In this document: positions 18,337 through 33,398 of the stretch, one piece after another | Layout: the number at the start of each line of letters is the position of its first letter | Numbering within the stretch: position 1 is the first letter of the stretch | Assembly (NCBI RefSeq): GCF_031128465.2 | Contig: NZ_CP155618.1 | Coordinates: 1,745,501-1,809,500 of the forward strand | DNA: 64,000 bases | Direction: 5' to 3' | From: Mariniflexile litorale | GTDB lineage: Bacteria > Bacteroidota > Bacteroidia > Flavobacteriales > Flavobacteriaceae | Notes under the pieces: model-generated | What the model saw: the letters and a program-made list of their open reading frames with translations, nothing else | Databases searched by the model: none | Told to the model about the DNA's origin: nothing | Program-made: the position numbers and the translations under genes

Positions 18337-18416
18337 GGTAACATTATGGTAACATTAAAATGATTGTTCTTTAATGTTTAAGTAACATACAATTTAAGTG
18401 GATTCGTTTTTTTTGC
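18337..18416 (+). promoter_or_regulatory. PHO-box-like 11-bp repeats and -7 element, promoter of the 18438 gene
   Basis: In-phase 11-mers are GGTAACATTAT (18337), GGTAACATTAA (18348), AATGATTGTTC (18359), TTTAATGTTTA (18370) and AGTAACATACA (18381). TTTGC at 18412 begins 31 bp after the start of the last unit. The ATG is 22 bp beyond. The spacing equals that at four other promoters in this block. Confidence 0.72.
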
Positions 18417-18437
18417 ATTGTTATTTATAATCGCAGC

Positions 18438-18824
18438 ATGAAACATTTAATTTATATTGCCCTATTCCTTTTTACCGCTTTATCCTTTGGGCAAAACACG
18501 GGCTTGATCGTTGGTAAAGTTTTAGATAATGAATTGAATGATGCACCATTAGTACTTGCTAACGTGTTGGTAAAAGGAACTTCTATTAATTTAAATACGG
18601 ATTTAACAGGTGTATTTGTTATAGAAAACCTAGAAGCTGGCGATTATACCTTAGTCTGTAGTTTTGCTGGTTATGAAACCAAAGAAATTAACGTACATGT
18701 AGATGCTTTACAAGCTACTGAAATAAAATTATCTTTAGCAGCAAGCACCATATCCTTAAGTGAGTTAGCTTTACTTACTAGCGTAGCACAAGAAGATACT
18801 AAATCGACTGCTGTTATAAATTAA
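18438..18824 (+). CDS. Secreted stand-alone carboxypeptidase-regulatory-like domain protein
   Basis: The protein has 128 residues. After a signal peptide (LFTALSFGQ) it holds one CarboxypepD_reg-like domain (GLIVGKVLDNELNDAPLV; LAGDYTL-type strand; FAGYETKEI) and a short tail. It is clearly paralogous to the N-terminus of the TonB receptor encoded 268 bp downstream, which shares QNTG, ENLEAG-YTLV-SF-GYET and ASxxSLSE. It stops where the receptor would enter its plug. It has its own signal peptide, a stop with no decayed barrel behind it, and its own conserved promoter. I therefore read it as a genuine small protein, perhaps a periplasmic accessory of the receptor, rather than a truncated gene. 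Function is unknown. Confidence 0.78.
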   Translation: MKHLIYIALFLFTALSFGQNTGLIVGKVLDNELNDAPLVLANVLVKGTSINLNTDLTGVFVIENLEAGDYTLVCSFAGYETKEINVHVDALQATEIKLSLAASTISLSELALLTSVAQEDTKSTAVIN

Positions 18825-18990
18825 CACAACTTTTATTATTTAAAAGTAAAATCTTCATAGTTGTTTCTATTCAAAAAAAGAATGGGTTTTTCACTTATTA
18901 ATATAAACTGAATCCACACATTTTATATACATTATATTTCTGTTCATTAAAAAAAGCAATGTTAAATTAATGTTTAGAAATCAACGATTC

Positions 18991-19070
18991 GGTAACATTA
19001 ACATAACGCTTTTGTTACCGTTGTTTAACCTACCCGTAACATCCTATTCATTTTGTGTTTCGTTCTTTGC
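18991..19070 (+). promoter_or_regulatory. Five consecutive PHO-box-like 11-mers plus -7 element, promoter of the TonB receptor gene
   Basis: The block splits without gaps into GGTAACATTAA (18991), CATAACGCTTT (19002), TGTTACCGTTG (19013), TTTAACCTACC (19024) and CGTAACATCCT (19035). All have TAAC (once TTAC) at positions 3-6. TTTGC begins at 19066, 31 bp from the start of the last unit. The ATG follows 22 bp after TTTGC. Confidence 0.78.
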
Positions 19071-19091
19071 ACCAGATAAAAACTAAAAAAA

Positions 19092-21863
19092 ATGAAAAAA
19101 TTAACCCTATTGTTTCTGCTATTTACAGCAACAATGTCATACAGCCAAAATACAGGTTCTGTGGTTGGTAAATTAACCGACAAAGAATACGATAATGAAC
19201 CATTGGCTTTTGCGAATGTATTAATAAAAGGTACTACAAAAGGAACTACATCGGATATTGATGGTTTATATAGTATTGAAAATTTAGAAGCAGGTGCTTA
19301 TACCCTTGTATTTAGTTTCGTTGGTTATGAAACCCAGGAAATCCAGGTAAATGTTGTTGCGAACAAGGTAACAACCGTAAATGTGCCTATGGGTGCAAGT
19401 GCTGCATCCTTATCGGAAATTGTTATCACAACCACAACAAAAAGAGAAAGTGAAACGGCGTTATTATTAGAACAAAAGAAAGCTGTAAGTTTTAAAGCAT
19501 CAATTGGAGCCGATGAACTTTCAAGAAAAGGTGTTAGCGATGTCGCTACTGCTGTAACCAAAGTAAGTGGTATTTCTAAACAAGAAGGTTCTGGTAATAT
19601 TTTTGTTAGAGGCTTAGGCGATCGTTATAACATTACAACGTTAAACGGCTTACCATTGCCTTCTAACAATCCTTCAAATAAAAATATTGTTTTAGACATT
19701 TTTACTACCGACATTGTTGAATATGTTGGAATAAGCAAAACATTCGAATCTCAAAATTATGCCGATTTTGGCGGTGCAAATATTGATATTGTATCTAAAA
19801 AATTCTCTGGAGCGCCATTTGTTACGGTAGGTGTTGGTTTAGGTGCTAATACAAATGTTTTAAAAGTGGATGACTTTTATTTGCAAGATGGTCCATCGTA
19901 TTTAGGGTTTGATTTTGGAAGCGCACCAAGTAATCCGTTGCTACCTTATAATTATGAAACAAGCTGGGACAGACAAACAAGTAAAAACACCTTTAACAAT
20001 AGTTATTCATTATCTGCTGGAAAAAAATTCAATTTAGGTGATGAAAGTCGTTTAGGCACCTTTATTACAGCTACTTTTGATGCTGATAATAAATATATTG
20101 AAGGGATAAACAGAGGTAACATCAATACCCAAGGTACTATTAATTCTGATTTCTACAAAAAATCATACCAACATAACACCAATACAACGATAATGGGTTC
20201 TGCAGATTACAAAGTTAATAATAACAATTCTGTATTATTTACATCGTTATTCTTAAACTCAAGCTCACAAGATTATAGTGAATATGAAGGCACTAATGTG
20301 AATTTTGATGGAGGAGCTTCTGGATCAGGTAATCTATCCGGATTTATTAAGCGTGGCACATTCAATAAAACACAGTTATTCATAAACCAATTATTAGGCA
20401 AACACAACATTAATGAGCAATGGGAAGCCAATTGGGCCGTTGGTTACAGTATTTTAAATAATGTAATTCCAGACCGTATGCAAAATACTTTTGTTCCTGC
20501 TCGTGATGGCTCGCCCAATTATACGTTCTTTACCGATTCTAGTATATATAATCATCGTTATTTTCAAGATTTACAGGAAAATGAATGGTCCGCAAATCTT
20601 TCAGTGTCTTATAATTTTAATGAAATAGAGGAAGCTGAGTATAGAGGGAAGTTAACCTTAGGGTATTCTGGAAAGCTAAAAGATATTTCTTTTGATTCGC
20701 AACAATACTCGTTTTTTCCAAATTTACTTAACTTCCCCCTTGAAGATATTCATAATATGGATTCTATCCTAAATGCTTCAAACTTTGATTTGACAGATGG
20801 AGATAGATCAAGCAAGCTCTCTCAATTTTATAATGGCAATTTAAATATACATGCTGTTTATGGGAATCTGGAATATCAAATATCTGATGAATTATCTGTT
20901 ATCTTAGGAGCTCGATTTGAACAGATAGACCAAAGTATATATTATGTTACTTCACTTGAACCAAGTGGTGATACGTCTAATTATACTCCTGTTAATTTTT
21001 TACCTAGTTTGACTGCAAAGTATAAATTAAATGATAAGCAAAATTTAAAATTTGCAGCAAGTAAAACTTATACTTTGCCACAATTTAAGGAAAAAGTCAA
21101 ATTATTTTTTGAAGAAGTAACCCAAGGCTATGAAGGAAATCCGAATTTATATGCATCAACCAATTATAATGTAGACTTAGGTTGGGAAATTTTCCCTAGT
21201 AATAGCGAACTAGTTTCGGTAACTGCTTTTGGTAAATTAATTCAAAACCCAATTAACGAAATGTTTACCAATTCTTCTTCTGGAAACATTACTTATGCTA
21301 ATACAGGTGAAAAAGCAACTGTAGTAGGTGCTGAAATTGAATTAAGAAAAAATGTTTTTGAAATCGAAAATGAAAACGATTTAAAACATAAATTATCATT
21401 TGGAATAAATGGCTCATACATTTATCACAATCAAGATTTAGATAAAGATAAAGTTTTGGAAGAAAATGGTTTTGGTGCAAACTTTACATTTGATGAGGTG
21501 AAGCTGTCTGGAGCATCCGATTTTTTAGCAAATGCCGACATTACTTTTTTAAAGGAATTTGCTAAACATAAAGATATATCTGCAACCTTATCTTATGCTT
21601 ATTTTTCAGACAAATTAGCTGTTATTGGAACTTCTGGCTTAGGTAATATGGTTGATAAGTCTATAAACAGATTAGATTTCATTATTAAATCTAACTTAAC
21701 AAAGAATCTAAAACTAGGAGTATCTTATAAAAACATATTAAACCCAATCTATGAAAGGATGTTGGAACAAAGTGAAGTGTCTGGGAGCACAACACCCGAT
21801 ATTTTAGTTAGTTCATACAAAATAGGTTCTGATTTAAAACTTTCGTTAGAATATAAGTTTTAA
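19092..21863 (+). CDS. TonB-dependent receptor of the phosphate-type locus
   Basis: This is a 923-residue outer-membrane receptor. It has a signal peptide (TMSYSQ), a carboxypeptidase-regulatory-like domain (about 22-100), a plug (VSGISKQEGSGNIFVRGLGD; DRYNITTLNGLPLPS; FTTDIVEYVGISKTF) and a barrel ending SYKIGSDLKLSLEYKF. It lacks the SusC-type GYGTQ box, and the next gene is not SusD. It is followed by a lipoprotein gene with the same promoter type, a porin and a PiT permease. Uptake of phosphate or a phosphorylated compound is therefore inferred from context; the ligand cannot be read from the sequence. A 42-bp palindromic terminator follows the gene. Confidence 0.9.
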   Translation: MKKLTLLFLLFTATMSYSQNTGSVVGKLTDKEYDNEPLAFANVLIKGTTKGTTSDIDGLYSIENLEAGAYTLVFSFVGYETQEIQVNVVANKVTTVNVPMGASAASLSEIVITTTTKRESETALLLEQKKAVSFKASIGADELSRKGVSDVATAVTKVSGISKQEGSGNIFVRGLGDRYNITTLNGLPLPSNNPSNKNIVLDIFTTDIVEYVGISKTFESQNYADFGGANIDIVSKKFSGAPFVTVGVGLGANTNVLKVDDFYLQDGPSYLGFDFGSAPSNPLLPYNYETSWDRQTSKNTFNNSYSLSAGKKFNLGDESRLGTFITATFDADNKYIEGINRGNINTQGTINSDFYKKSYQHNTNTTIMGSADYKVNNNNSVLFTSLFLNSSSQDYSEYEGTNVNFDGGASGSGNLSGFIKRGTFNKTQLFINQLLGKHNINEQWEANWAVGYSILNNVIPDRMQNTFVPARDGSPNYTFFTDSSIYNHRYFQDLQENEWSANLSVSYNFNEIEEAEYRGKLTLGYSGKLKDISFDSQQYSFFPNLLNFPLEDIHNMDSILNASNFDLTDGDRSSKLSQFYNGNLNIHAVYGNLEYQISDELSVILGARFEQIDQSIYYVTSLEPSGDTSNYTPVNFLPSLTAKYKLNDKQNLKFAASKTYTLPQFKEKVKLFFEEVTQGYEGNPNLYASTNYNVDLGWEIFPSNSELVSVTAFGKLIQNPINEMFTNSSSGNITYANTGEKATVVGAEIELRKNVFEIENENDLKHKLSFGINGSYIYHNQDLDKDKVLEENGFGANFTFDEVKLSGASDFLANADITFLKEFAKHKDISATLSYAYFSDKLAVIGTSGLGNMVDKSINRLDFIIKSNLTKNLKLGVSYKNILNPIYERMLEQSEVSGSTTPDILVSSYKIGSDLKLSLEYKF

Positions 21864-21884
21864 AAAAAATACGATTTTTAAATT

Positions 21885-21926
21885 AGCAAAAAGGTGATTG
21901 AATATATATTCAATCACCTTTTTGCT
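21885..21926. terminator. Perfect 42-bp palindrome, terminator after the TonB receptor gene
   Basis: The arm at 21885-21905 (AGCAAAAAGGTGATTGAATA plus T) is exactly complementary to 21906-21926, with no loop bases. The T5 within the descending arm and the position 22 bp after the stop suggest a terminator that works on either strand. Confidence 0.75.
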
Positions 21927-21981
21927 TTATACACTTTTATGTAAAATTTATGTTAACTCAAATCACCTTTTTATAAAAATA

Positions 21982-22039
21982 CTTAACAACAAGGTAATAA
22001 AGGCTTAACCTATTAAAAACAGTTTGGTGCTTTCTTTGC
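21982..22039 (+). promoter_or_regulatory. PHO-box-like repeats and -7 element, promoter of the 22070 lipoprotein gene
   Basis: In-phase 11-mers are CTTAACAACAA (21982), GGTAATAAAGG (21993) and CTTAACCTATT (22004). TTTGC begins at 22035, again exactly 31 bp from the start of the last unit. The ATG is at 22070. Confidence 0.7.
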
Positions 22040-22069
22040 CACATAAAATAAAACAAAAAATATTCAAAA

Positions 22070-23182
22070 ATGAAAAAATCAATTTTAGCAATAGCAGCAA
22101 TTGTTACCCTTGCTTTTACAAGTTGTAGTGACGATAATGGATCATCAGATAAAAGTACTTTCGAGTTGAAAGTAGATGATTTAAAAGGAAACATTAATGA
22201 TGGTACTATTACTTTAGATCCATCTCAAACCTATACTTTAACTGGTGGTTTAGTTGTAAAATCTGGCGCTACTTTAACAATTCCTGCTGGAACTACTATA
22301 AAATCAGATCCTACAGTTGGAGTAGATCCAAACACTCTATATATTGCTGTTGAAAGAGGAGCAACAATTAATATTAACGGAACTGCGGCAAACCCTGTAA
22401 TTATGACTTCAGGGCAAGCATCACCTGAGCAAAGTGATTGGGGAGGTCTAATTATATGTGGTGATGGAAAAGTAAATACAGGAGATAATGGAACATCTGA
22501 AGTTGGAGGCTTACTATATGGTGGTAATAACAATGCAGATTCGTCAGGTAAGATTAACTATTTAATAATTAAATACACTGGTTCTAATTTCTCTTCAAGC
22601 AAAGAATATAACGGTGTTTCGTTTTTTGGAGTAGGTAGCGGAACTCAAGTTTCTAATATTTACACTTTTGAAAGTGGAGACGATGGTATTGAGTTTTTTG
22701 GTGGTGCTGTAAATGCGTCTAATTTAATAATCATAAATTCTTATGATGATTCTTTAGATTTCGCTGATGGATATGTTGGTTCTATTAACAATATATATAT
22801 TTCAGGGGTTACTAAAGCAGGTATTGAAGGATCAAATAATGAGCAAAATGGTGCCATAACTCCAATGACAGATGCTAAATTATCAAATGTTTCAATTGTA
22901 AAAGGAAGTGATGCCAAATTTGGAGCTACTGAGCAAGCTATTAACTTTAAAGATGGTGGTGGAAAACAACTATATACTAATTTATTTGTTTCAGGTATCG
23001 AGACATTTGCTAAAGTAGATGCTGGAACTGCTGCAGCTGCAAGAATTGCCGCTGGAGACTTTAAAGTAAATGGTAAAAACTTTGTAAGTGCAAGCAACTT
23101 AACTACTGATTATGTTTCAGCTGAAACAGGTGCTGGTTCTGGAGCTACGCTACCTACTTGGGCAGCATGGATTAACAACTAA
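22070..23182 (+). CDS. Lipoprotein of unknown function, beta-helix-like, in phosphate-type locus
   Basis: The protein has 370 residues. The signal ends LAFTSC, giving a lipid anchor. The body has the regular short-strand, Gly/Asn/Thr-rich character of a right-handed beta-helix (TLTIPAGTTIKSDPTVG; NINGTAANPVIMTSGQ; SNIYTFESGDDGIEFFGGAV; NLIIINSYDDSLDFADG). There is no lyase or phosphatase active-site motif that I recognise. It follows the TonB receptor with its own matching promoter, so a surface binding or accessory role in the same uptake process is inferred. Good terminators before and after make it monocistronic. Confidence 0.75.
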   Translation: MKKSILAIAAIVTLAFTSCSDDNGSSDKSTFELKVDDLKGNINDGTITLDPSQTYTLTGGLVVKSGATLTIPAGTTIKSDPTVGVDPNTLYIAVERGATININGTAANPVIMTSGQASPEQSDWGGLIICGDGKVNTGDNGTSEVGGLLYGGNNNADSSGKINYLIIKYTGSNFSSSKEYNGVSFFGVGSGTQVSNIYTFESGDDGIEFFGGAVNASNLIIINSYDDSLDFADGYVGSINNIYISGVTKAGIEGSNNEQNGAITPMTDAKLSNVSIVKGSDAKFGATEQAINFKDGGGKQLYTNLFVSGIETFAKVDAGTAAAARIAAGDFKVNGKNFVSASNLTTDYVSAETGAGSGATLPTWAAWINN

Positions 23183-23209
23183 TAAGAAACAATTAGTTTT
23201 ATATAATTG

Positions 23210-23240
23210 AAAAGCATCCCATTTGGGATGCTTTTTGTTT
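23210..23240 (+). terminator. Rho-independent terminator after the 22070 lipoprotein gene
   Basis: The stem is AAAAGCATCCCA (23210-23221) with TGGGATGCTTTT (23224-23235), followed by T-rich sequence. Confidence 0.85.
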
Positions 23241-23264
23241 TTAGTTTATTTAAAAAAATGTTAC

Positions 23265-23600
23265 TTATTGAATTTCAGATTCTTTTAAACTCGCTATAGC
23301 ATTGTTGCTATAATCTACTTCTTTTATGGTTTCATTAGTGTAATAAAACCATTTGCCGACTTTTTTACCATTATCATAATTTCCTGAAACTGTTTTTTTG
23401 CCTGCTGTATCAAAACTTAACCACTCACCCTGTAATTTACCATCTGTTGTGTAAGTTCCAGTTTGACTTACAACATCATTGTCATGATAATAAACCACTT
23501 CAATTAAATTAGTGTCTTTGTTAAGTTTTAAATCTCTCTTTTGTTGTCCAAAAGAAACCACAGTAATTAAAAAGGCAAAAACTAAAATACATTTCTTCAT
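23265..23600 (-). CDS. Small secreted MORN-repeat-like protein
   Basis: The protein has 111 residues, with start chosen at MKKCILVFAFLITVVSFGQ because it gives a clean signal peptide. A start 24 codons further upstream would place charged residues first. The mature part has MORN-like or YwqK-like repeats (GTYTTDGKLQGEWLSFDT; GNYDNGKKVGKWFYY). Such proteins are common in Flavobacteriia with no settled function. It is inserted on the opposite strand inside the phosphate-type block. Its upstream region carries four in-phase GTTAnC-like 11-mers and a perfect TATATTTG -7 element at 23628-23635, so co-regulation is plausible. Confidence 0.78.
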   Translation of the reverse strand: MKKCILVFAFLITVVSFGQQKRDLKLNKDTNLIEVVYYHDNDVVSQTGTYTTDGKLQGEWLSFDTAGKKTVSGNYDNGKKVGKWFYYTNETIKEVDYSNNAIASLKESEIQ

Positions 23601-23627
23601 AATTATGGGGGTTTTAACATTATATAT

Positions 23628-23681
23628 CAAATATACAAATTTGTTAACTTTAAAACAACGTCTTGTTAACATTAAGATAAC
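23628..23681 (-). promoter_or_regulatory. Candidate promoter of the MORN-like gene with 11-bp-phased GTTAAC units
   Basis: Read on the minus strand, consecutive 11-mers are GTTATCTTAAT (from 23681), GTTAACAAGAC (23670), GTTGTTTTAAA (23659) and GTTAACAAATT (23648). TATATTTG at 23635-23628 is a perfect -7 element. Its distance to the repeats does not match the 31-bp rule of the other promoters. A weaker TTTG at 23639 does match, so the arrangement is tentative. Confidence 0.45.
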
Positions 23682-23699
23682 ATTGTCATGATAACTGTT

Positions 23700-23908
23700 T
23701 GTTTTTTAGAATATTACCAATGTTAAATTTAACATTGGTAATATTAATAATTACTTAATATTAATATTACAATTAGCTAAACTAAAAGATTGATATTCGC
23801 AATGTCTTAAGACATAACAATTAGTTTTTCATATAATCTATTAGTTTTTGTCGACTACATTATCATGATTTCTAATGAGCTGCCTTTGGCCGAGGCAGCT
23901 TTTTTTTG
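23700..23908 (+). ncRNA. Possible small RNA ending at an orphan terminator
   Basis: This segment holds no reasonable ORF. It begins after forward-oriented repeats GTTAACATTAA (23665) and GATAACATTGT (23676). It contains a perfect 36-bp palindrome (23710-23745, AATATTACCAATGTTAAA and its complement) and ends in a strong forward terminator. No plus-strand gene lies upstream to use that terminator, because the preceding gene has its own at 23210. A transcript is inferred, not shown. Confidence 0.3.
23878..23908 (+). terminator. Strong forward terminator without an obvious gene
   Basis: The stem is AGCTGCCT (23878-23885) with AGGCAGCT (23893-23900), followed by eight T. On the minus strand there is no T tract, so it is directional. 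It lies just before the porin promoter repeats. Confidence 0.8.
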
Positions 23909-23915
23909 TTTTAAA

Positions 23916-23962
23916 CTTAATTATTAGGAAACATTTAGTTAACATTGGTTTTAGTTATTTGC
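23916..23962 (+). promoter_or_regulatory. PHO-box-like repeats and -7 element, promoter of the porin gene
   Basis: In-phase 11-mers are CTTAATTATTA (23916), GGAAACATTTA (23927) and GTTAACATTGG (23938). TTTGC begins at 23958, which is 31 bp from the 23927 unit and 20 bp (one unit less) from the 23938 unit. The ATG is 25 bp further on. Confidence 0.65.
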
Positions 23963-23986
23963 AGCGACAAAAACTAAGAAATAATA

Positions 23987-25195
23987 ATGAAAATTAAATT
24001 TTCAATAGTTGCGATATTAATTTATGCAACTACTTCACTGAACGCACAAGAAATTAACGGCTCTAAATTTGGAAAAGGTTTATTAAACATTGTGGGACAA
24101 GATAGTTCTTGGACTATGAAAGTTGGTTTAAGAATGCAGTTTTTGTCTCTAGCCAGTTGGGATGCAGAAGATGGCCGCCTAATGAATCCGAATTCTGATT
24201 TTTCTGTTAGAAGAGCTCGTTTAAAATTTGAAGGGTTTGCTTATAGTCCAAAACTTGAATATAAATTAGAATTAGGCTTATCCAATGATGATTTATCGGG
24301 AGGATCAGTTTACACAGGCAATGCACCTAGGCACATACTTGATGCAGTCGTAAAATGGAATTTTTATAAGGATTTTGTATTATGGGCTGGACAAACTAAA
24401 TTACCGGGAAATAGAGAACGCGTTATTTCTTCTGGAAATATGCAATTTGTAGACCGTTCTTTACTTAACAGTCGATTTACTATTGATCGCGATATGGGTA
24501 TTCAATTACATCATCATTTTAATTTAAGTAAAACTTTTGTTGTTAAGGAAATAGTAGCTATATCACAAGGTGAAGGAAGGAATATAACTAAAGGAAATCT
24601 GGGAGGACATCAATACACAACCAGATTAGAACTATTTCCTTTTGGTGAATTTACTGATGGAGGTGATTATTCTGGTAGTGATTTAAAAAGAGAAAAAACA
24701 CCAAAATTAGCATTAGCAGTTACTTATGATTTTAATAACAATGCTGTTAAAACACGAAGTAATCAAGGGGCTTACATGGTTATTGATAATGAGGAAAGCT
24801 TTTTTGAAACAAACATCAATACCCTTTATATAGATGCCATGTTTAAGTATCTCGGCTTTTCTTTTATGGGAGAGTATGCCCAAAGAGATGCCAAAGACCC
24901 CTATGCTAAAAACAGTGATGGTTCTCTAACAGGGGCAGAAGTACAAGTAGGCAATGGTTTAAACATGCAAGCAGGATACCTTTTTAAATCTAATTGGGAA
25001 ATTTCAGGACGTTATACAAATATTGAACTCAACAAAACCGTCACAGGTAAAGATGCCGAAAATCAATACACCTTAGGTGTTTCAAAATATATTGTTGGAC
25101 ATAAATTAAAAGTACAATCGGACATCAGCTATCTAGATATTGCTAACAGCAATAACCAATTGTTGTATCGATTACAGTTTGATATTCATTTCTAA
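23987..25195 (+). CDS. OprO/OprP-type phosphate-selective porin
   Basis: This is a 402-residue outer-membrane barrel protein. A signal peptide (TTSLNAQ) is followed by the family's N-terminal pattern SWTMKVGLRMQFLSLASW and FSVRRARLKFEGFAYSPKLE. The INDxL-like strand segment YKLELGLSNDD and LWAGQTKLPGNRERVISSGN, both typical of the OprO/P superfamily, come next. The C-terminus ends in an aromatic strand (LLYRLQFDIHF). Phosphate or polyphosphate selectivity is the family's best-known role and fits the PiT permease gene 74 bp downstream. Both have separate, matching promoters. Confidence 0.88.
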   Translation: MKIKFSIVAILIYATTSLNAQEINGSKFGKGLLNIVGQDSSWTMKVGLRMQFLSLASWDAEDGRLMNPNSDFSVRRARLKFEGFAYSPKLEYKLELGLSNDDLSGGSVYTGNAPRHILDAVVKWNFYKDFVLWAGQTKLPGNRERVISSGNMQFVDRSLLNSRFTIDRDMGIQLHHHFNLSKTFVVKEIVAISQGEGRNITKGNLGGHQYTTRLELFPFGEFTDGGDYSGSDLKREKTPKLALAVTYDFNNNAVKTRSNQGAYMVIDNEESFFETNINTLYIDAMFKYLGFSFMGEYAQRDAKDPYAKNSDGSLTGAEVQVGNGLNMQAGYLFKSNWEISGRYTNIELNKTVTGKDAENQYTLGVSKYIVGHKLKVQSDISYLDIANSNNQLLYRLQFDIHF

Positions 25196-25200
25196 TAAAA

Positions 25201-25247
25201 CATAACAATTACGTAACTTAGCATTATAAAATACAAAGGATATTTGC
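25201..25247 (+). promoter_or_regulatory. PHO-box-like repeats and -7 element, promoter of the PiT permease gene
   Basis: Adjacent 11-mers are CATAACAATTA (25201) and CGTAACTTAGC (25212). TTTGC begins at 25243, exactly 31 bp from the second unit. The ATG is 23 bp further on. The site starts 5 bp after the porin stop codon. Confidence 0.68.
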
Positions 25248-25269: not shown

Positions 25270-27579
25270 ATGGATAATATATACTTATTAATGATAATTG
25301 CCCTAGCGGTATTAGCCATTGCCGATTTAGTTGTTGGCGTTAGCAATGACGCTGTTAATTTCTTGAATTCGGCCATTGGTTCTAAAGGCGTTTCATTTAA
25401 AACTATTATGATAGTCGCCAGTGTTGGTGTTGCGGTTGGAGCTGTATTTTCAAGTGGGATGATGGAAGTTGCCAGAAAAGGTATTTTCAATCCTCATGAA
25501 TTCATGTTTAATGAAATCATGATTATTTTCATGGCCGTTATGATAACAGATATACTGCTATTAGACTTTTTTAATACAGTAGGTATGCCAACATCTACAA
25601 CGGTTTCTATTGTTTTCGAATTATTAGGTGCTTCAGTAGCTATGGCACTTATTAAAATTGGACATAATGAGGGTACATTTACTGATGTTGTTAATTATAT
25701 AAATACCTCTAAGGCTTCTGAAATTATTTTTGGCATATTACTCTCTGTAGTCGTCGCTTTCTCAGTTGGGGCAGCGGTTCAATGGGTAGCCAGACTTTTA
25801 TTATCCTATAATTTTGAGAAAAAAGCTAACTGGGTAGGTGCTCTTTTTGGCGGAATGGCTATTACATCTATCACCTATTTTATTTTCATGAAAGGAATTG
25901 GTGGAACCGCATTTGCAAAACAAAGCTTTGCTATTACTGGAGGAGCGACCATTAAAGAATTTTTAGAAACACAAGTGGCGTTAATTATTTTATGCAGCCT
26001 TATTGTATGGTCCTTAATTTCTTTTGCTTTAATAAATTATGCTAAAGTTAATATTTATAAACTTATTATCATCATAGGTACCTTTGCGCTGGCTTTAGCT
26101 TTTGCAGGAAACGATTTAGTTAATTTTATTGGTGTGCCTATTGCTGGATGGCAGTCTTACAACGCTTGGGCCGGATCGGGTATTGCTCCCGAGGCTTTTA
26201 GCATGGGCTTTCTTGCCGATAAAGTACCAACACCCACCATTTTATTAGTAATTGCTGGGTTTATTATGGTTGCCACCTTATGGTTTTCTAAAAAAGCAAA
26301 ATCGGTTACAGAAACTGAAATCAACTTATCTAGAGAAGGCGACGGGAAAGAACGCTTTCAACCTAATTTTTTATCGCGGGGTTTTGTTAGATTGGCGTTA
26401 GGTATTTCACAGATGTCATCCTATATACTACCAAATACTTGGCAAGCTAAAATTGATAAACAGTTTGAAAAACCTGTAATTAATTTAGCAAAATCTAAAA
26501 CACACGAATTACCAGCATTCGATATGGTACGTGCAGCCGTAAATTTAATGGTAGCCGCTATTCTTATATCATTAGCAACCTCTATGAAACTTCCATTGTC
26601 AACAACCTATGTAACATTTATGGTTGCTATGGGGTCGTCTTTAGCAGATAGAGCGTGGGGTGCAGAAAGTGCTGTTTATAGAGTTGCAGGTGTTTTAAAT
26701 GTTATTGGGGGTTGGTTTTTTACTGCCATTATAGCTTTTGTAGCTGCAGCAGTTATAGCCTACTTGTTAAACTGGAACGTAGACGTTATGGTTCCTGTAT
26801 TGTTATTGGTAGCTGCTTTATTGTTAGTTAGAAATTATATATCTCACCGAGAAAAAACGAAAGAAGCAAAAGCTGAAGACAGTTTAACAAAAGCTGAAAG
26901 CAGCTCTATTCAAGGTGTTATACATGAAAGTGCTAAAAATATTGCCAATGTTGTAAAACGTGGAAATAAAATTTACACCAATGCGATTAATGGATTGGCT
27001 AAGCAAGATTTAGCATTATTGAAAAAGAATAAAAAACAGATTGTAAAATTATCTAGTGAGGTAGATGAATTACGTGATAATATTTTCTATTTCATCAAAA
27101 ATTTAGATGAATCGAGTCTTGGTGCTAGTAATTTTTACATTCACATTTTAGGATACCTTCAAGATATGACTCAGTCTTTAGAGTACATTACTAAGGTTAG
27201 TCATAAACACGTTCAAAACAATCATAAAAAACTAAAATTTAACCAAATAAAAGAGTTGAAAGAAGTTGATGAACGCTTTGAAACGTTCTTTAACAATACT
27301 CAAAAAGCGTTTAATTCTAGCTCTTTTGAAGAAATTGGCCTTATTTTAGGGAGAAAACAGGAAATTTTAGGATTAGTAACCTCTAAAATCCAAAAACAAG
27401 TTGAACGTACTCGTACTGAAGAATCGAGTCCTAAAAACACTACATTATACTTTAGTTTATTACTAGAAACTAAAGATTTATTAAATGCCACTATGAATCT
27501 GTTAGAAGAATACCATAATGCACATGATGCTTCGGTAAAACCTGCCACTTTATTACAAAACCCAACAGAATCTAAATAA
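25270..27579 (+). CDS. PiT-family inorganic phosphate permease with C-terminal PhoU-like domain
   Basis: This 769-residue inner-membrane Na+ or H+/phosphate symporter of the PHO4 family carries the two inverted signature repeats: VVGVSNDAVNFLNSAIGSK near the N-terminus and ALAFAGNDLVNFIGVPIAGW in the middle. There are about ten to twelve hydrophobic segments over residues 1-530. After the last segment come about 220 soluble helical residues resembling PhoU/DUF47 (LDESSLGASNFYIHILGYLQ; YLQDMTQSLEYITKVSHKHV). A PiT-PhoU-like fusion is common in Bacteroidetes. Own promoter with the block's 11-bp repeats suggests phosphate-starvation control. A terminator follows 21 bp after the stop. Confidence 0.93.
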   Translation: MDNIYLLMIIALAVLAIADLVVGVSNDAVNFLNSAIGSKGVSFKTIMIVASVGVAVGAVFSSGMMEVARKGIFNPHEFMFNEIMIIFMAVMITDILLLDFFNTVGMPTSTTVSIVFELLGASVAMALIKIGHNEGTFTDVVNYINTSKASEIIFGILLSVVVAFSVGAAVQWVARLLLSYNFEKKANWVGALFGGMAITSITYFIFMKGIGGTAFAKQSFAITGGATIKEFLETQVALIILCSLIVWSLISFALINYAKVNIYKLIIIIGTFALALAFAGNDLVNFIGVPIAGWQSYNAWAGSGIAPEAFSMGFLADKVPTPTILLVIAGFIMVATLWFSKKAKSVTETEINLSREGDGKERFQPNFLSRGFVRLALGISQMSSYILPNTWQAKIDKQFEKPVINLAKSKTHELPAFDMVRAAVNLMVAAILISLATSMKLPLSTTYVTFMVAMGSSLADRAWGAESAVYRVAGVLNVIGGWFFTAIIAFVAAAVIAYLLNWNVDVMVPVLLLVAALLLVRNYISHREKTKEAKAEDSLTKAESSSIQGVIHESAKNIANVVKRGNKIYTNAINGLAKQDLALLKKNKKQIVKLSSEVDELRDNIFYFIKNLDESSLGASNFYIHILGYLQDMTQSLEYITKVSHKHVQNNHKKLKFNQIKELKEVDERFETFFNNTQKAFNSSSFEEIGLILGRKQEILGLVTSKIQKQVERTRTEESSPKNTTLYFSLLLETKDLLNATMNLLEEYHNAHDASVKPATLLQNPTESK

Positions 27580-28069: not shown

Positions 28070-30553
28070 TTAAGACCCACACATTAAGCAATCATCTCCT
28101 TCTGCAGCTTTAGCTTGAGCTATTAAAGCTTTCATTTCATCGGCACTCATCGGCTCAATTTCCGGAGTTTGTTTTTGGCTTGCAAATTTAATGGCCGTTT
28201 TTTCTGCTATATTCTTTTTTTGTGCTGCTTGTGTAGCATCTTGATTTATTACTTCTACCTCTTCTGCTAAGGGTTCTTCGTTTTTAGTGGTTTTTAAAGT
28301 AAACTTAATGGCATCTACAGCACTCTTAGTACGTAAATAGTACATACCTGTTTTTAAACCACTTTTCCAAGCATAAAAGTGCATAGAGGTTAGTTTTGCC
28401 ATAGTGGCACCTTCCATAAACAGGTTAAGCGATTGTGACTGATCAATAAAGTAACCTCTTTGGCGACTCATGTCAATAATATCTTTCATACTTAACTCCC
28501 AAACTGTTTTATAAAGTTCTTTAATGTCTTGCGGAATAATATCAATACCTTGAACCGAGCCATTAGCTCTCATGATATCTTGCTTTAAAGCATCGTTCCA
28601 TAAACCTAACTCTACTAAATCTTCCAATAAATGTTTGTTTACTACAATAAATTCACCCGATAATACACGACGTGTGTAAATGTTAGAAGTATAAGGTTCA
28701 AAACACTCGTTATTTCCTAAAATTTGAGATGTTGAAGCTGTAGGCATCGGAGCAACCAAAAGTGAATTACGCACCCCATGTTTTAATACTTGTTTACGGA
28801 GTTTCTCCCATTCCCACATACCGCTTAATTCTTCATCTTTCAAATTCCAAAGATTGTATTGGAATTGACCTTTACTTATAGGAGATCCTTCATACGATTC
28901 GTACGGACCATCGGCCTTAGCTTCTTCCATACTGGCAGTAACGGCTGCAAAATAAAGCGTTTCAAAAATATCTTGATTTAACTTTTTAGCTTCATCACTT
29001 GTAAAAGGCATACGTAACAAAATAAACGTATCTGCCAATCCTTGCACACCAAGACCTATAGGTCTGTGACGCATATTCGAGTTTTTGGCTTCTATTACAG
29101 GATAGTAATTTCTATCGATAACTCTGTTTAAATTTTTTGTAACACGTTTTGTAATACGGAAAAGCTCTTTATGGTCGAACTCGCCATTTTTAACAAACAT
29201 TGGTAGCGCAATGGATGCTAAATTACAAACAGCAACCTCATCTGGAGATGTATACTCCATAATTTCTGTACATAAATTTGAAGAACGGATGGTTCCTAAA
29301 TTTTGTTGATTCGATTTACGGTTTGCTGCATCTTTATACAACATGTAAGGTGTACCTGTTTCAATTTGAGATTCTAATATTTTCTCCCACAGTTCACGAG
29401 CGTTGATGGTTTTACGTCCTTTTCCTTCTGCTTCATATTTTAAATATAATGCCTCAAAAGCCTCACTATGCACTTCATCTAAACCAGGACATTCGTTAGG
29501 ACACATTAAGGTCCACTTTCCATCTTCTTGAACACGTTGCATAAACAAATCGGAAATCCACATAGCATAAAATAAATCACGTGCACGCATTTCTTCTTTA
29601 CCATGGTTTTTCTTCAAGTCTAAGAAATCCATAATATCGGCATGCCATGTTTCAATATACATTGCAAAACTTCCTTTACGTTTTCCGCCACCTTGATCTA
29701 CATAACGTGCCGTATCGTTAAATACTTTTAACATAGGAACAATACCGTTTGATGTACCATTAGTACCCGATATATAACTTCCTGTAGCACGAATGTTGTG
29801 TATAGCCAAACCAATACCTCCTGCCGATTGCGAAATTTTGGCGGTTTGTTTTAATGTATCGTAAATACCATCAATACTATCGTCTTTCATAGTTAATAAG
29901 AAACAAGAAGACATTTGTGGCTTGGGTGTACCTGCATTAAAAAGTGTTGGTGTAGCGTGTGTAAAATATTTTTTAGACATGAGTTCGTAAGTTTCAATAA
30001 CCGACTCTAAATCGTCTAAATGAATTCCTACTGCCACACGCATTAGCATATGTTGTGGACGTTCGGCTATTTTACCATTTAATTTTAATAAATACGAACG
30101 TTCTAAAGTTTTAAACCCAAAATAATCATAGCCAAAATCACGGTTATATATAATGGTAGAATCTAAAACATCTTTATTTTTCATGATAACCTCGTAAACA
30201 TCATCGGCTAAAAGCGATGCATCTTTACCAGTTCTGGGATTTACGTAAGTGTACAGGTCGTGCATCACCTCACTAAATGTTTTTTTAGTGTTTTTATGTA
30301 AGTTAGACACAGAAATTCTTGCTGCTAGCCTTGCATAATCTGGATGAGCCGTTGTCATGGTTGCAGCAATTTCAGCAGCTAAGTTATCAAGTTCACTAGT
30401 AGTAACCCCATCATATAAACCTTCAATAACACGCATAGTTACTTTTAAAGGGTCTACTAATTCGTTTAACCCGTAACACAACTTACGCACTCTTGCGGTT
30501 ATTTTGTCGAACATAATTTGTTCTTTTCTGCCGTCTCTTTTTACTACATACAT
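28070..30553 (-). CDS. nrdA: Ribonucleoside-diphosphate reductase, large (alpha) subunit, class Ia
   Basis: The protein reduces ribonucleotides to deoxyribonucleotides with the NrdB radical subunit. The N-terminus is an ATP-cone ([21 protein letters not shown]) for allosteric control. The reductase core has [16 protein letters not shown] with a catalytic cysteine, [22 protein letters not shown] and the finger-loop region. The C-terminus ends DDCLMCGS, the CxxC shuttle that takes electrons from thioredoxin or glutaredoxin. ATG 30553 gives the standard start MYVVKRDG; eleven upstream codons in frame look non-coding. It lies 219 bp after nrdB in the same direction, with a hairpin in the gap. Confidence 0.95.
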
Positions 30554-32810: not shown

Positions 32811-33398
32811 ATGAAACTTAATTTTAAAGAAATATTTACTGCTTTTATGGTATTGTTTGCGGTTGTAGACATTGTTGGTAATATTCCAATAATAATTGAT
32901 TTACGAAAAAAAGTAGGTCATATTAATAGTAGAAGAGCCGCTATTATATCAGGAGTTATCATGATTGCATTTCTTTTTTTAGGAAACAGTATTTTAACCC
33001 TTATTGGTATTGATGTGAATTCGTTTGCAGTTGCAGGAGCATTTATTCTGTTTTTCATTGCTTTAGAAATGGTATTAGGTATTACACTTTACAAACATGA
33101 AGAATATACGGCTGACGCAGCTTCGGTATTTCCATTAGCATTTCCACTTATTGCTGGCCCTGGAAGCTTAACTACACTATTATCGTTAAGAGCTGAATTT
33201 AAAATCGAGAATATTATAGTCGCTATCATATTAAACGTTATTGTTATTTTTATTGTTTTAAAAACATCAAAAACCATCGAACGTTTTTTAGGGCAAAATG
33301 GTATTAGTATTGTTAGAAAAGTATTTGGCGTTATATTATTAGCGATTGCGGTTAAACTGTTTGCTCATAATATTAAAGCATTGTTTGAAATAATATAA
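32811..33398 (+). CDS. MarC family integral membrane protein
   Basis: This 195-residue protein has six hydrophobic segments. It starts NFKEIFTAFMVLFAVVDIVGNIPI and contains the MarC signature FPLAFPLIAGPGSLTTLLSL. GNIP near the N-terminus and IAVKLFAHNIKALFE at the end are also typical. Despite the name, MarC proteins have no proven role in antibiotic resistance and the transported substrate is unknown. A small two-TM protein gene follows 12 bp later, so they form an operon. Confidence 0.9.
   Translation: MKLNFKEIFTAFMVLFAVVDIVGNIPIIIDLRKKVGHINSRRAAIISGVIMIAFLFLGNSILTLIGIDVNSFAVAGAFILFFIALEMVLGITLYKHEEYTADAASVFPLAFPLIAGPGSLTTLLSLRAEFKIENIIVAIILNVIVIFIVLKTSKTIERFLGQNGISIVRKVFGVILLAIAVKLFAHNIKALFEII

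Follow-up and report, generated by a model that had tools for sequence, protein, structure and literature searches.

In a 64,000-nt stretch of the Mariniflexile litorale genome (contig NZ_CP155618.1, positions 1,745,501 to 1,809,500; hereafter the window, numbered from its first letter), five promoters in a block of phosphate-type genes carry direct repeats of 11 bp with the core TAAC, placed in a fixed register upstream of a TTTGC element. We read these repeats as a PHO box, the predicted operator of the phosphate-response regulator PhoB, with a probability of about 0.88. The register is conserved in relatives and the arrays are linked to phoBR; on this sequence evidence PhoB would bind the repeats, contact RNA polymerase and induce the genes at low phosphate.

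Arrangement of the repeats at the five promoters

All five genes and their arrays lie on the forward strand, and the offsets of the cores are counted from the first T of TTTG, negative values being upstream. The TonB-dependent receptor gene (923 aa, 19092-21863, assigned by Pfam) is preceded by an array that consists, as the first-pass annotation had described, of five gap-free 11-bp units at 18991-19045, in order GGTAACATTAA CATAACGCTTT TGTTACCGTTG TTTAACCTACC CGTAACATCCT, with exact TAAC at -73, -62, -40 and -29, TTAC at -51, and TTTGC at 19066-19070. The gene of the PiT phosphate transporter (PF01384 by Pfam, 769 aa, 25270-27579) has two 11-bp units (25201-25222), with exact TAAC at -40 and -29, followed by TTTGC at 25243-25247. 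Upstream of the gene for a 128-aa protein with a CarboxypepD_reg domain (Pfam; 18438-18824) the array at 18337-18391 has exact TAAC at -73, -62 and -29 and TAAT at -40, and the TTTG of its TTTGC, a putative -7 element (18412-18416), starts 26 bp before the ATG at 18438. Three 11-bp units (21982-22014; TAAC at -51, TAAT at -40, TAAC at -29) and TTTGC at 22035-22039 precede the gene of a 370-aa lipoprotein (22070-23182), for which there was no Pfam match, and three further units (23916-23948; TAAT at -40, AAAC at -29, TAAC at -18) with TTTGC at 23958-23962 precede that of an OprO/P-type porin (PF07396 by Pfam, 402 aa, 23987-25195).

The five pairs of a unit and a TTTGC 31 bp further on that had been listed in the first-pass annotation were all present (18381/18412, 19035/19066, 22004/22035, 23927/23958 and 25212/25243), with TAAC exact at unit positions 3-6 in four of them and AAAC in the unit at 23927. 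The core at -29 is exact at four of the five promoters, the porin having its TAAC one unit downstream, at -18; at -40 it is TAAC before the receptor and PiT and TAAT before the other three. At least two tandem direct repeats of 11 bp, the arrangement that defines a PHO box, are found both in the window and in relatives.

Specificity and conservation of the register

In the window TAAC stands at this distance before TTTGC five times, always on the forward strand and never on the reverse, namely at four of the named sites and at 33024, inside an open reading frame (ORF), and the mean in 60 dinucleotide shuffles was 1.4, with a maximum of 4. Four-unit grid scores of at least 15/16 were obtained at three starts in two arrays of the window and at none in the 60 shuffles.

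The receptor and PiT (E <= 1e-100) and PhoB (E <= 1e-60) were searched for in 120 genomes of the family, M. litorale included, and were found in 69, 118 and 115 of them, respectively. A repetition in related Flavobacteriaceae had been proposed in the first-pass annotation, and the register was kept there: among the best 29 receptor and the best 29 PiT loci, M. litorale excluded, TAAC stood at -29 or -40 of TTTG in 26/29 and 26/29, compared with 0-2 for grids shifted by 1-10 bp, and at least two exact on-grid cores were present at 26 receptor and 24 PiT loci of 29 each (shifted grids, 0-1). Of the 26 receptor sites with register, 24 have an exact core at -73, 22 at -62, 12 at -40 and 25 at -29, and there is a near match at -51 in 18 of them and at -18 in 22. 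At the 26 PiT sites with register exact cores were confined to the grid positions -40 and -29, each in 25 sites, and we therefore distinguish a two-box form from a longer one. TTTG begins 21-61 bp before the start codon, in 48 of the 52 receptor and PiT sites 24-30 bp before it, and is followed by C in 71 of 74 sites of relatives. These 74 sites, which also served for training, and the consensus sites had been preselected for at least 7/8 matches at -29/-40, so that their letters at those two positions are partly due to selection. The receptor promoters of relatives also have a conserved TTTACA at -19 to -14, which falls on the grid as a near match (22/26 have TTAC at -18); a near match of this type at -18 was seen in only one of the 26 PiT promoters.

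A matrix of 50 positions, trained on the 74 sites, all of them from relatives, gave scores of 36.0 for PiT, 34.9 for the receptor, 28.2 for the porin, 23.7 for the lipoprotein and 22.6 for the 128-aa gene, so that the five promoters took ranks 1-5 among 44 window genes, the sixth scoring -3.7. In a background of 265 upstream regions from 20 stretches of 20 kb of the same genome the best score was 9.2, for a MauG gene that is also a pattern hit (see below), and the next 5.7. All five promoters still exceeded all 265 background regions when the PiT sites were left out of training, and four of five did so when the PiT sites alone were used, the lipoprotein promoter being the exception (21/265 as high). 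When the box was displaced by 1 bp relative to TTTGC, the window promoters fell from 22-36 to at most 6.5 bits, and within shifts of -5 to +5 the highest score was 15.4 (PiT, +5). The -29/-40 register and the 1-bp shift control show a fixed distance between the box and the downstream promoter element, as is expected of a PHO box.

In favour of a chance origin of the repeats from AT-rich sequence, three-unit patterns are no commoner in the genome than in a backward control (counts below). Such an origin, to which we assign a negligible probability, is contradicted by a register that is preserved in several genera while shifted grids stay close to zero, and by the matrix and shift controls.

Linkage of the arrays to phoBR

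By their positions, PhoB and the receptor are directly divergent in 17 of the 69 receptor-bearing genomes. All 17 intergenic regions contain TTTGC and at least two on-grid cores with at least 3/4 letters, and 15 of them have exact TAAC at -29. A lipoprotein gene follows the receptor at each of these loci and a glycosyltransferase (GT) gene stands beside PhoR at 11; the window's 370-aa lipoprotein shares 34-48% identity with the gene that follows the PhoB-linked receptor in those relatives that were examined, a position occupied by FII in Flavobacterium johnsoniae. One locus (L207) has the order PiT-porin-lipoprotein-receptor | PhoB-PhoR-GT and so unites the window block with phoBR, and at another (L193) PiT also lies within the PhoB-linked cluster. 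In 22 Flavobacterium genomes, drawn from the best 80 of at least 594 GldM loci, PhoB was present in 22/22 and an array in register lay on its divergent side in 22/22 (shifted grids, 0-3); these genomes belong to one genus and are not independent, and the divergent neighbour was confirmed as the receptor at six loci. The complete F. johnsoniae-type order, glycosyltransferase-(OprP)-PhoR-PhoB-receptor-FII, was found in F. anhuiense (L318).

M. litorale has three Trans_reg_C response regulators, the best of which is clustered with genes for a histidine kinase and, in convergent orientation, a glycosyltransferase (L052). At phoB there is only GT-PhoR-PhoB, the receptor, lipoprotein and porin being located in the window instead. 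An array of the same type lies between PhoB and a divergent 113-aa gene with a type IX secretion system tail (T9SS113). The T9SS113 gene and LuxE-like genes adjoin PhoB (L052, 4077-8436), about 0.48 Mb from the receptor/lipoprotein/porin/PiT block of the window.

The window holds one more array, absent from the list in the first-pass annotation: four 11-bp units on the forward strand at 23643-23686, between divergent genes, with 15/16 grid matches. Inspection of the sequence by eye revealed no TTTG in register with it. The 15-mer AACATTAAGATAACA is common to this off-register array and to the PhoB-side array (L052, 6920).

The segment VGGRTIDVHIRKLREK, which we take to be the recognition-helix region of PhoB, is invariant in 52/52 aligned PhoB sequences. 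The repeats might instead be bound by some other response regulator of the OmpR family, or by a different factor, with PhoB a mere neighbour, and two more Trans_reg_C proteins are indeed available in the genome. We hold this to be very improbable, since PhoB adjoins arrays in 17 genomes and in M. litorale itself and occurs in 115 of the 120 genomes, its helix region is unchanged in the 52 sequences aligned, and the core reported for Riemerella PhoP matches (PMC9603813).

Expression and binding in other bacteria

In F. johnsoniae, 95 transcripts are reported to rise under phosphate depletion (PMC8115612). Induction is reported for the receptor (fold change 8.02), FII (9.91), PlcP (8.59), a MauG-like protein (9.58), PhoB (3.06) and the glycosyltransferase Fjoh_0541 (5.42) (PMC8115612). 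The receptor and FII were matched to the genes studied here through the gene order of a near relative, and PlcP and MauG by Pfam family only. F. anhuiense, which is near F. johnsoniae, has boxes before the receptor, the lipoprotein and OprP.

Riemerella anatipestifer belongs to the same order as M. litorale. For its PhoP, a core TTTAACA was obtained by DNA affinity purification sequencing (DAP-seq), binding to the moxR promoter and others was reported by electrophoretic mobility shift assay (EMSA), and moxR changed by -2.03 in a phoP mutant (PMC9603813); the regulation of moxR by PhoP is repeated in a later report (PMC11834572).

The assignment of the repeats to PhoB, which the first-pass annotation had drawn from the neighbouring genes, is favoured by the linkage of the arrays to phoBR, the invariant helix segment, the induction in F. 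johnsoniae and the Riemerella core, which together point to PhoB as the probable binder; the family assignment of the regulator itself was less satisfactory, as described below.

Genome-wide scans and evidence against a PhoB operator

Several observations weigh against the operator proposed here. The M. litorale genome is a single contig of 4.52 Mb, and across it the three-unit pattern was rejected as genome-wide evidence, as it was not above the backward control (61 vs 68; 38 vs 55). The two-unit pattern with TTTGC and at most one mismatch gave 29 matches vs 20 in the backward control, a modest excess, and 20 of the 29 were intragenic. The matrix scored moxR at 1.1 and PlcP, two further candidates, at 5.2, and two of the 265 background regions, one of them MauG, were as high. 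At the lipoprotein promoter the register was found in only 7/23 relatives (shifted grids, 0-1). The regulator remained below the cut-offs of the PhoB equivalogs TIGR02154 (219.1 vs 296.2) and NF053854 (213.1 vs 270), although these were still its two best matches among 98 NCBIfam families. The PhoB-side array of M. litorale is out of register (T9SS113 -10.8, PhoB -7.7). Among 29 genomes of the family that were selected for the similarity of their PhoB, an array persists beside PhoB and is in register in only 4/29 (shifted grids, 0-6). The alignment suggests that the T9SS113 gene in those genomes may have an ordinary promoter, TTGGCA...TAnnTTT, and that the array stands upstream of it.

Expression data add to these points. 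OprP (Fjoh_0542) was not induced in F. johnsoniae (-1.3, not significant; PMC8115612), and no box at threshold was found before the F. anhuiense glycosyltransferase; the box before OprP and the boxless glycosyltransferase of F. anhuiense are both at odds with the expression seen in F. johnsoniae. For Riemerella, an 8-fold rise of pstS mRNA in a phoPR mutant is reported (PMC5399024), which is not what a simple activator of phosphate genes would produce.

A scan with an 11-bp period and a fixed offset had been suggested as a check in the first-pass annotation. Apart from the intragenic matches, the two-unit pattern gave nine that were intergenic (by simple ORF calling in 3-kb loci). Eight of them lie with their end 20-50 bp upstream of a start on the same strand, as do all four of the matches with zero mismatches. 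The eight lie before the receptor, PiT, the 128-aa gene, the lipoprotein, moxR, an OMP_b-brl_3 receptor, MauG and a CAP-domain lipoprotein. The moxR promoter, which precedes bat-type genes (L355, 2275-11485), has exact cores at -29, -40, -62 and -73, as has the receptor of the window, and moxR is therewith an added candidate target outside Riemerella. The top matches of the three-unit scan were the window lipoprotein and PlcP, with zero mismatches, and the receptor with one; the box of PlcP (PF12850, with a glycosyltransferase next to it) lies 157 bp before the start and is followed by TTTGT. A PhoX match was found in 6 of the 22 Flavobacterium genomes, and of two PhoX loci inspected, that of F. 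subsaxonicum has a weak box before a MauG-PhoX pair and that of F. fluviatile none at threshold.

A second 11-bp tandem family, the TAACCATGCTA arrays, was set aside as a different repeat. It occurs near positions 28346, 500571, 1070747, 2401713, 2794768, 3532290 and 4318428 of the genome (L068-L071, L006, L007, L009); similar sequence follows it at several loci, it lies outside ORFs in the four loci checked, and it has the look of an interspersed element.

A rival reading is a PhoB-like regulator that binds the box in response to a signal other than mainly phosphate, namely a wider envelope or redox (ArcA-like) regulator of whose regulon the phosphate genes would be part. The Riemerella PhoP motif is described as ArcA-like, with the aerotolerance (bat) operon among the targets of PhoP (PMC9603813), the four cores of moxR in M. 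litorale recall this target, and the rise of pstS mRNA in the phoPR mutant is in the direction opposite to that of a phosphate activator (PMC5399024). The window, however, contains the porin O/P and PiT as well as counterparts of genes that phosphate depletion induces in F. johnsoniae, and several of those F. johnsoniae genes are reported by the authors to be tightly repressed under nitrogen and iron limitation (PMC8115612). Among NCBIfam models, moreover, the regulator matches PhoB best, albeit with a score under the cut-off. We consider such a regulator improbable, and retain a phosphate-responsive PhoB as the preferred binder.

Proposed promoter architecture and comparison with known PHO boxes

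Ordinary Bacteroidota promoters use a -33 element. With PhoB as activator, two of its DNA-binding domains would sit head to tail on the 11-bp units with TAAC at -40 and -29. We place TTTG at -8 to -5 of the transcript because the sigma-A -7 box of F. psychrophilum, TAnnTTTG, is reported at -12 to -5 (PMC9723704). The last core would then occupy roughly -37 to -34 and overlie the -33 element, whose part PhoB would take over in bringing RNA polymerase to TTTGC; at the receptor and moxR promoters the extra cores at -73 and -62 would be available in addition. A complete TAnnTTTG around TTTGC, to which the first-pass annotation had likened the element, was not recovered: the bases that precede TTTG in the sites of relatives are mostly TTTC (receptor) or GATA (PiT), and the two positions -4/-3, where the canonical Bacteroidota -7 element has TA, are mostly TT and GA, respectively.

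The Escherichia coli PHO box likewise consists of 11-nt head-to-tail units in two direct repeats (PMC4415409), and its spacing from the -10 element is constant at 10 bp (PMC1906773). It differs in its core, CTGTCAT as opposed to TAAC here, a difference already recognised in the first-pass annotation, and in having a -10 hexamer in place of TTTGC. We did not take CTGTCAT as class-defining because the consensus is reported to vary between species (PMC4415409). The Pho box of the cyanobacterial regulator SphR, CTTAACCT, is made of tandem repeats of 8 bp with a 3-bp linker and has the same period of 11 bp and a core, TTAAC, that is nearly the same; it belongs to another phylum and another promoter type, and no fixed TTTGC distance is described for it in the account cited (PMC1906773).

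Riemerella PhoP is likened to the present regulator by motif and target, namely the core TTTAACA and the bound moxR promoter, and is itself described by the authors as raised when phosphate is scarce (PMC9603813). It differs in that the reported core is ArcA-like with 583 peaks, and the main text of that paper contains 0 occurrences of direct repeat, 11-bp or Pho box (PMC9603813). In the plcP clusters of marine bacteria, Pho boxes were predicted by the authors for strains that include the flavobacterium Dokdonia MED134; in the text available, no consensus is stated and flavobacterial boxes are not singled out (PMC4796936). The PhoB of Bacteroides fragilis is reported to be required for pstC expression in low phosphate and to bind the pstC promoter in EMSA, and the terms consensus, direct repeat and binding site do not occur in the text of that paper (PMC3547664). 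The core itself is not new, because TTTAACA was already reported for Riemerella PhoP by DAP-seq and a near-identical core is known from cyanobacteria. Among the papers listed in searches of the open-access literature we found no statement of an 11-bp PHO box at a fixed TTTGC distance in Bacteroidota, and the fixed register and the four-box form appear to be new.

A possible PhoU-like C-terminal region of PiT

The last 239 residues of PiT (26860-27576, forward strand) are 69-88% identical among 13 relatives aligned. A single-sequence model of this region has six long helices with a mean predicted local distance difference test (pLDDT) of 58, which is of low confidence. All six structure matches with E <= 0.001 were PhoU or PhoU-like (best E 1.5e-4), and among the first 15 matches 14 were described as PhoU or PhoU-like and the other as a hypothetical protein, with template modelling (TM) scores of up to 0.76 by target length. 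Sequence comparison did not support a PhoU domain, PF01895 giving 13.9 bits vs a cut-off of 23.5 (E 0.07), and hhalign of the tail with the PhoU of five relatives gave no support. By Pfam, PhoU was not detected in the M. litorale genome, and 7 of 25 genomes in the same search have it.

If the model is right, PiT would carry its own PhoU-like domain in a genome in which PhoU itself was not detected. It is conceivable, though in our judgement rather unlikely, that in flavobacteria without free PhoU this tail would report transport to PhoR, and PhoB would in turn control PiT through the PHO box, a closed loop of sensor, transporter and operator that would replace Pst-PhoU.

Implications

The putative PhoU-like tail of PiT would make phosphate sensing without free PhoU directly testable. 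The geometry described here ties a published and unexplained DAP-seq motif to the layout of a promoter and suggests how PhoB may meet the unusual promoter of Bacteroidota, and with the positional rule, TAAC at 29 and 40 bp upstream of TTTGC, it could become possible to read much of the family's phosphate regulon from genomes.

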